A stretch of 64,000 nucleotides of DNA from Oxalobacter sp. (GTDB lineage Bacteria; Pseudomonadota; Gammaproteobacteria; Burkholderiales; Burkholderiaceae_D), in assembly GCA_003605115.1 (NCBI GenBank), contig QZKY01000006.1, forward strand, positions 1-64,000. Reading direction: 5' to 3'. How positions within the stretch are numbered: the stretch's first letter is position 1; every line of letters begins with the position of its first letter. A model generated the notes under the pieces. It was not told the DNA's origin and did not search any database. It saw only the letters and a list, made by a program, of their open reading frames with translations. Shown in pieces: positions 60,741 through 62,205 of the stretch. The position numbers were made by a program, and so were the translations under genes.

Positions 60741-61006
60741 GCCCCCTCTCCCCTCGCGGGAGAGGGATGGGGTGAGGGGGCATGAGCGAACGTTGCAGTA
60801 GATTGAACTTGCCGGGGGTAGCCCGGCGGCTACCCACCTTTTTTGTGTCGCCAAAAAAGGTGGGCCAAAAAAAGCGACCGCGGCGCCGCTGAATTCCCGC
60901 TGCCAGTGCAGCAAAAGCGGGAAGCGAAAAAACTCGCTTCGCTCAAACAGTTTTCGCTTCTGATCCGCTTTTGCTTTCTGTCAGCGGCAGCGTCGCAAGC
61001 GGTTGA
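60741..61006. repeat. left arm of a ~265-bp inverted repeat
   Basis: The stretch from the CCCCCTCTCCCC hairpin through CGTTGCAGTAG, CTTGCCGGGGGTAGCCCGGC and CTCGCTTCGCTCAAACAG to CGTCGCAAGCGG recurs almost base for base, reversed and complemented, at 61932-62202. I counted very few mismatches in the ~270 bp, mostly in two short patches. Confidence 0.88.
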
Positions 61007-61075
61007 GCTTGAAATAAACAAAGTAGACCGAAAATTTGAGGCTGACTACGCAGCAGATATCTAGCAGGAGGGAAT

Positions 61076-61297
61076 ATGGTTCCAATCGCAAAACGACTAC
61101 TAAACATCCTTTCAATCATTTGTACTTTGTATTTGCTAACGCTTATATTCACTATGGTGACTGGTAGCGTAGCTAATTGGAGCCAGTTCATCGGCATTAA
61201 CTTTGGTCTTTTAGCTGTCGGATACACCATCATTGCGGCAATAAACTACATTGTTTTTGGTGAAGTCAGGCTATGGCATAAAAAGCCATCACAGTGA
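61076..61297 (+). CDS. small two-helix membrane protein of unknown function
   Basis: 73-residue protein, first of the two genes in the inverted-repeat cassette. Two hydrophobic helices are predicted (about 9-29, LNILSIICTLYLLTLIFTMV, and 43-62, FGLLAVGYTIIAAINYIVFG), with a short polar C-terminus (RLWHKKPSQ). AGGAGG six bases before the ATG is an excellent ribosome site, which supports a real gene. I do not recognise the family. It is followed after 87 bp by a second membrane protein gene. Confidence 0.65.
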   Translation: MVPIAKRLLNILSIICTLYLLTLIFTMVTGSVANWSQFIGINFGLLAVGYTIIAAINYIVFGEVRLWHKKPSQ

Positions 61298-61384
61298 AAA
61301 TAAGGCCAGTCGTTTTTTAAGTGATGTGTAAATTACTTTTGTTCAATTTCCAGTTTCAAAGATATCGAAAAGGAATTTTCAAAC

Positions 61385-61885
61385 ATGGCGAATTGGGTAT
61401 CGATAGTAATCGCGGTGGCGGCATTAGGTGTGACTTTTTGGCAAGTCAGTGTTGCTCGTCGTCATAACAAACTTAGCGTTCTGCCGATGATCGTGCATCA
61501 CAACAAAAAAAACATCACCAATCAAGGAACCACGTTTAGTTATGTGATCAAAAACGTTGGTATAGGTCCGGCGCTAATTACTGATCGCTATTTTGAGATC
61601 CAAAGCAATAGATTTATACCCAATGAAACTGGACATTTAATCAAGGAGTTGTGTGATAAATTGATTGGGCGCTCACACGAATACCATGTTCTTTCGTCAG
61701 GGATGTTCGGAGCCAAGGCTAAAATTCCTGCGGGTGCGGAGTTCACTCTAGCTGAGATTCTTTTCCCAAGAATTGTTCGCGAAGATCAGGTGCAAATTAT
61801 TGAAGCACTGTTTGAGAAAGCAGCTTTTGTAATCAAGTATGAGTCAATTTATGGCGAGCAGTTTTCTTATCACACAGATGAGTGA
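61385..61885 (+). CDS. membrane-anchored protein of unknown function with Ig-like domain
   Basis: 166-residue protein, second of the cassette pair. An N-terminal helix (about 4-20, WVSIVIAVAALGVTFWQ) is followed by the pattern VARRHNKLSVLPMI and then a beta-rich part with the motif KNVGIGPALI, as in a family of bacterial hypothetical membrane proteins I recall but cannot name. AAGGA lies about 11 bases upstream of the ATG. Composition is AT-richer than the surrounding core genes, which fits lateral acquisition. Function unknown. Confidence 0.7.
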   Translation: MANWVSIVIAVAALGVTFWQVSVARRHNKLSVLPMIVHHNKKNITNQGTTFSYVIKNVGIGPALITDRYFEIQSNRFIPNETGHLIKELCDKLIGRSHEYHVLSSGMFGAKAKIPAGAEFTLAEILFPRIVREDQVQIIEALFEKAAFVIKYESIYGEQFSYHTDE

Positions 61886-62205
61886 ACGACACATGAGTCT
61901 TAACTTATGCGGAATCGTTGGTGGCTGTTTTTCAATCCGCTTGCGACGCTGCCGATGGCGGGGAGGCAAAAGCGGATCAAGAAGCAAAAACTGTTTGAGC
62001 GAAGCGAGTTTTTTTGCTTCCCGCTTTGGCCTTCACGACAGCGGGGAAGTCAGCGGCGCCGCGGTCGCCTTTTTTGGCTTACCTTTTTTGGCGAAACAAA
62101 AAAGGTAAGTAGCCGCCGGGCTACCCCCGGCAAGTTCGACCTACTGCAACGTTTGATTATGTCCCCCTCACCCCAACCCTCTCCCGCGAGGGGAGAGGGG
62201 GTAAG
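61886..62205. other. 320-bp gap: right arm of the inverted repeat
   Basis: No gene is supported. Almost the whole gap is the right arm (61932-62202), which ends in a CCCTCTCCC / GGGAGAGG hairpin right at the stop of priA. Open frames inside it are repeat shadows. Confidence 0.85.
61932..62202. repeat. right arm of the inverted repeat
   Basis: Reverse-complement partner of 60741-61006. Both arms end outward in the CCCCCTCTCCCCTCGCGGG hairpin, so the terminal hairpins point away from the two enclosed genes. Confidence 0.88.

Follow-up and report, generated by a model that had tools for sequence, protein, structure and literature searches.

The insert between ettA and priA

The window, by which we mean the whole 64,000-nt stretch of Oxalobacter sp. 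contig QZKY01000006.1 that was analysed, carries an accessory two-gene insert at the junction of ettA and priA, two convergent housekeeping genes. Its features are as follows, with coordinates given as positions within this stretch, forward strand.

60742-60780 (+): outermost element on the ettA side, a C-rich REP-type palindrome that matches 62163-62201 at 97% in inverted orientation
60785-61006 (+): left arm, type A, a three-hairpin repeat with its outer end toward ettA (alignment, fold and R1 match)
60812-60826 (+): hairpin 1 of the left arm, with a T run downstream (arm fold)
60833-60864 (+): hairpin 2 of the left arm (inverted-repeat listing and arm fold)
60897-60987 (+): hairpin 3 of the left arm, a long stem of variable sequence with the conserved loop AACTCGCTTCGCTCAAACA (compensatory changes)
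61076-61297 (+): hydrophobic 73-aa ORF, an orphan, with an AGGAGG ribosome site
61385-61885 (+): 166-aa ORF with a hydrophobic N-terminal helix; remote homologues on Alteromonas and Vibrio plasmids
61932-62160 (-): right arm, type B, with its inner end toward the 166-aa ORF and its outer end toward priA (R1 match)
62163-62201 (-): outermost element on the priA side, a C-rich REP-type palindrome (inverted-repeat match)

A preliminary description of this region had reported near-identical inverted arms of about 265 bp with a REP-like hairpin at their outer ends, enclosing two genes and no transposase. All of these elements were recovered, and alignment of 60742-61006 with 61932-62201 in opposite orientation gave an 89% match, or 11% divergence. 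The inverted match does not correspond to a single repeat, however, as each arm consists of an outer 39-bp C-rich REP, with approximately 12 further dispersed copies in the genome apart from the pair in the window, and an inner repeat of approximately 200-230 bp. R1, a covariance model built from the arm, matched the inner repeat at 60810-61002 (+) with 200.8 bits on the left and at 61937-62132 (-) with 206.3 bits on the right. Hairpins with T runs that resemble terminators are predicted to point inward from both core genes, one of them at 60816-60835 (+) within hairpin 1 of the left arm, and the arms may incidentally serve as additional terminators of ettA and priA transcription.

Remote homologues of the 166-aa protein (29-32% identity) lie on Alteromonas and Vibrio plasmids. 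A search of 295 family genomes yielded no good relative and a single weak match at 26%, and a scan of genome contigs gave one remote match of 54 residues. No homologue was found for the 73-aa ORF, which makes it less certain as a gene; we considered whether it is the counterpart of a 72-aa neighbour of genes of the 166-aa family, but the two are unrelated. Neither Pfam nor PADLOC provided a name for either protein, and the structure that AlphaFold predicted for the 166-aa protein from single-sequence input (pLDDT 44) was set aside. Arm DNA had no match among plasmids. As the preliminary description had proposed, we looked for genomes in which ettA and priA are adjacent, and in both congeners examined (G001 and G002) the two genes adjoin across a short terminator spacer, with neither the two genes nor the arms. 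Because the junction is empty in the congeners and the relatives of the 166-aa protein are distant and plasmid-borne, these comparisons indicate that the gene pair is an acquired accessory insert. No target-site duplication was seen at the outer ends of the window unit, for which the empty sites of the congeners are too diverged to align, and comparison of the outer flanks of arm loci recovered none.

We also considered an integron cassette and rejected this for the window unit, which has neither attC sites nor the shared leader seen at other loci. Neither the window unit nor the sibling units bounded by arms contained an attC pair by a strict R''/R' pattern, which recovers one of four attC sites recognized by eye elsewhere, and no integron integrase scored above the cut-off in this genome. 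The leader is a second repeat of approximately 150 bp with a promoter-like TGTTATTATGC motif that ends in ...CGTTAG directly before genes, and it occurs at loci L114 (1375-1560), L110, L111, L115 and L118 (contigs C1, C7, C11, C4 and C7). It resembles an attI site with a promoter, and attC-like sites follow the genes at four loci with this repeat. A 60-bp palindrome, AAAACCGGGGTCAGAGT...ACTCTGACCCCGAATTTTT, lies on both sides of loci with the attI-like leader (L144, 3011 and 5193; L148, 2617 and 5029; L151, 2557 and 3733) and outside many arms as well; its core fits the GGGGWSAS motif published for repeats that flank RAYT genes (PMC3733652). At four loci (L059, L060, L061 and L062), truncated tails of the attI-like leader were found just inside arms, which gives the impression that the leader was severed by the arm.

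The arm as a dispersed three-hairpin palindrome

An alignment of 26 arms from six genomes, covering approximately 200 positions, revealed three hairpins common to all of them, with compensatory changes in 34 of 50 base pairs. These are frequent in the two helices of hairpin 3 (17 of 21 and 9 of 10 pairs), the stem of which differs strongly in sequence among copies while its complementarity is kept and its loop is conserved. Paired cells made up 95.6% compared to 80.6% in shuffles, and shifting the partner by one to three columns reduced pairing to 39-52%. The helices contain 1200 Watson-Crick, 13 G-T and 29 A-C cells, and as G-T cells are not in excess, complementarity is maintained in the DNA and not as RNA. 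Judging from this covariation, the inner repeat is a DNA palindrome; a structured RNA was rejected on the lack of G-T excess and of any Rfam match in the window region. In the arm, GTAG forms part of the hairpin 1 loop, and CGTC follows hairpin 3. One arm of this genome (L064, 4058-4129, contig C2) has an extra insertion of approximately 71 bp in hairpin 2 that includes a further palindromic stretch.

The preliminary description had noted that many inner tracts of the arms look like widespread intergenic repeats. R1 matched in at least 115 of the 246 family genomes searched, which represent 29 of its 44 genera; these are lower bounds, as ten candidates per genome were scored. When 100 arm loci from approximately 40 genomes were scanned with R1 for pair geometry, we found 53 convergent pairs, no divergent pairs and two tandem neighbours, all with spacers of 62-274 bp, too short for any of these pairs to accommodate a transposase gene between its arms. 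None of the 53 pairs in other genomes contained cargo. The usual form elsewhere in the family is a compact two-armed element with distinct ends, and the mates of such an element within one genome are of different types and 61-86% alike, while same-type arms at separate loci are up to 99% alike. In several genomes the centre sequence is conserved, and both orientations are represented among the copies. On the strength of these heterotypic mates, alike same-type arms, conserved centres and both orientations, the compact element is a real dispersed two-ended unit. The arms and pairs in other genomes lie mostly at gene 3' ends, between convergent (26), tandem (15) or divergent (3) genes. No description of the arm repeat was found in the literature searched on integrons, MITEs and REPs, which offered precedents only.

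Arms and cargoes in the Oxalobacter genome

There are approximately 16 arms in the 2.32-Mb genome, present as four convergent pairs that span cargo and as single arms. The pairs are as follows.

Pair 1, window unit: the 73-aa and 166-aa ORFs
Pair 2, contig C3: Mrr-type nuclease
Pair 3, contig C17: 218-aa membrane protein
Pair 4, contig C5: 136-aa membrane protein

At C5b (DUF6602), C14, C9 (DUF2971) and C8, only one arm faces the accessory gene, and single arms without cargo occur both here and in congener G002. The contig ends of C1, C8, C11 and C17 stop inside an arm, and more arm pairs may hide at assembly breaks. Arm copies within the genome are up to 91-94% identical (C3L with C5c, C3R with C17L), and the right arm of the window unit groups with C3R and C17L. 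Pairs are heterotypic (type A with B or C), as are the two ends of the compact elements, and the closest relatives of pair mates are arms at other loci, often single arms. Mates are not each other's nearest copies, and on this ground we rejected an origin of the pair by inverted duplication of one arm in place.

Random placement of 16 positions in 2.3 Mb produced four close pairs in none of 20,000 simulations, which rules out chance as the source of the pairing itself, and four convergent pairs among approximately 16 arms require either a very small set of permitted sites (approximately 100-200) or a mechanism that links the arms. The flanks could be read for 14 arms. In 12 of these a REP, belonging to one of two kinds, lies approximately 15-70 bp beyond the outer end in fixed polarity, and in none of the 14 is there one on the inner side. 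The resulting order and polarity are fixed: core gene 3' end, REP, arm, accessory gene. The dispersal of both kinds of repeat is compatible with common intergenic repeats that happen to surround two genes, but the simulations and the exclusively outer position of the REPs make such a coincidence very improbable. The preliminary description had offered two copies of a dispersed repeat placed by chance around two genes; the dispersed copies are the better reading, whereas chance placement does not agree with the fixed order and polarity. The same order would also be expected if a REP pair between convergent genes had received a two-armed element in its centre, and this in turn foreign genes, often integron-type cassettes, with every layer thus forming an inverted pair. 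The outer REPs of the window unit are of the same kind and inverted, and cassette loci without arms are likewise bounded by repeats on both sides, but the outer REPs of the C3 pair are of two different kinds, many arms and REPs are single, and mrr occurs in G001 without arms, so that we consider this nested arrangement unlikely.

The purM-mrr locus, where pair 2 resides, provides the decisive comparison on which came first. In congener G001 the Mrr gene is fragmented but occupies the same place next to purM as here, and neither side carries an arm. The main pieces of its protein are 81-92% identical to the gene here and a C-terminal stretch is 74% identical, compared to 51-53% for the next-best Mrr homologues among the genomes searched. 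Congener G002 has neither the Mrr gene nor arms at purM, and the right-hand neighbours of purM-mrr differ between the two species that carry it. Coding DNA of the same genes at this locus is 72-76% identical between these species, and because arm copies are 91-94% identical, the arms would have spread after the species split. These comparisons suggest that the arms probably settled on both sides of a resident accessory gene at purM-mrr. It is possible that G001 lost its arms, which takes as many events as a gain in this genome, and gene conversion among arms could possibly account for their likeness. The mrr evidence comes from one sibling locus, and the genes of the window unit are absent from both congeners.

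The preliminary description also raised a non-autonomous mobile unit. In such a unit the genes would have replaced the approximately 150-bp centre of a two-ended element moved by a transposase acting in trans. Elsewhere the compact elements form genuine units, whose two ends differ, whose centres are conserved and whose copies lie in both orientations; the pairs here are likewise heterotypic and convergent, several arms have a conserved inner boundary, and four different cargoes, including the Mrr nuclease and membrane proteins, are enclosed. This possibility is weakened by the armless sibling gene at the same locus in G001 and by mates that are nearest to arms at other loci. In addition, none of the 53 pairs in other genomes holds cargo, the R1 scan found no compact pair in this genome, no target duplication was seen, no transposase is encoded within the four cargo pairs, and no second copy of the same cargo was seen. 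We retain it as a tentative minority explanation because four pairs are too many for random placement. Its bolder form, a family of two-ended palindromic elements without a transposase that would move varied foreign cargoes (Mrr nuclease, membrane proteins) in their centre as a single unit, by means of DNA hairpins with changing but always complementary stems, seems doubtful.

We lean, by a modest preference, toward independent dispersing palindromes that accumulated around an acquired gene pair, and not a transposon. Each border would be the same stack of gene 3' end, short REP palindrome and one arm with its outer end toward the REP and the core gene. The arms would be independent, non-coding and dispersing units that build up on the accessory side of gene-end REPs, and the two arms here may have arrived separately. 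As arm polarity is fixed and the two core genes are convergent, the product would be a convergent pair that mimics terminal inverted repeats. Spread of the arms probably involved DNA hairpins processed by an enzyme, either HUH (RAYT-like) or of another kind. The strongest candidates for this role are RAYT-type HUH enzymes, because published double inverted repeats of this build flank RAYT genes in Pseudomonas (PMC3733652) and because it is the DNA strands that stay complementary. No RAYT gene was seen in the loci read.

Comparison with known repeat systems

The repeat family is of greater interest than the arrangement around the gene pair. Roughly half of the genomes sampled across this large bacterial family carry it. 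Its DNA stems vary freely yet remain complementary, which makes the repeat well suited to tests of hairpin-dependent mobility and of palindrome repair. Through their fixed layering at the borders of acquired genes, such repeats can imitate a transposon, which is a trap for automated calls of cargo-carrying elements.

Terminal inverted repeats that bound a unit, as in MITEs, are found in the compact elements, and the window unit has inverted arms. Arms and cargo do not always occur together, given the armless mrr in G001 and the single arms without cargo. MITE-flanked integrons, or integron mobilisation units, are known from Acinetobacter and Enterobacter, and they resemble the present loci in having MITE-like repeats on both sides of acquired genes. 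They differ in that here there are several cargoes per genome, the window unit lacks an integron, and a sibling gene exists without arms.

REPINs and BIMEs are REP pairs mobilised by RAYT transposases (PMC3116915). They are likewise inverted palindrome pairs at gene 3' ends, often with two different units per pair, and the intergenic inverted pairs near gene 3' ends described here correspond to this pattern. The arms are several times longer, however, with a long hypervariable stem: each has three hairpins in approximately 200 bp, where REPs are stem-loops of 20-40 bp bearing GTAG or CGTC as an unpaired tag. According to PMC3733652, REPs sit mostly at gene 3' ends, and in Pseudomonas putida and P. 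fluorescens GTAG-REPs and stem-loops form long “double inverted repeats”. In contrast to these repeats, to which we liken the arms by description and not by sequence, no RAYT was seen between the arms here, and each arm has three hairpins in approximately 200 bp. The arm repeat nonetheless works like this REP or “double inverted repeat” class, which likewise consists of joined stem-loops in hundreds of intergenic copies, some of them flanking RAYT genes.
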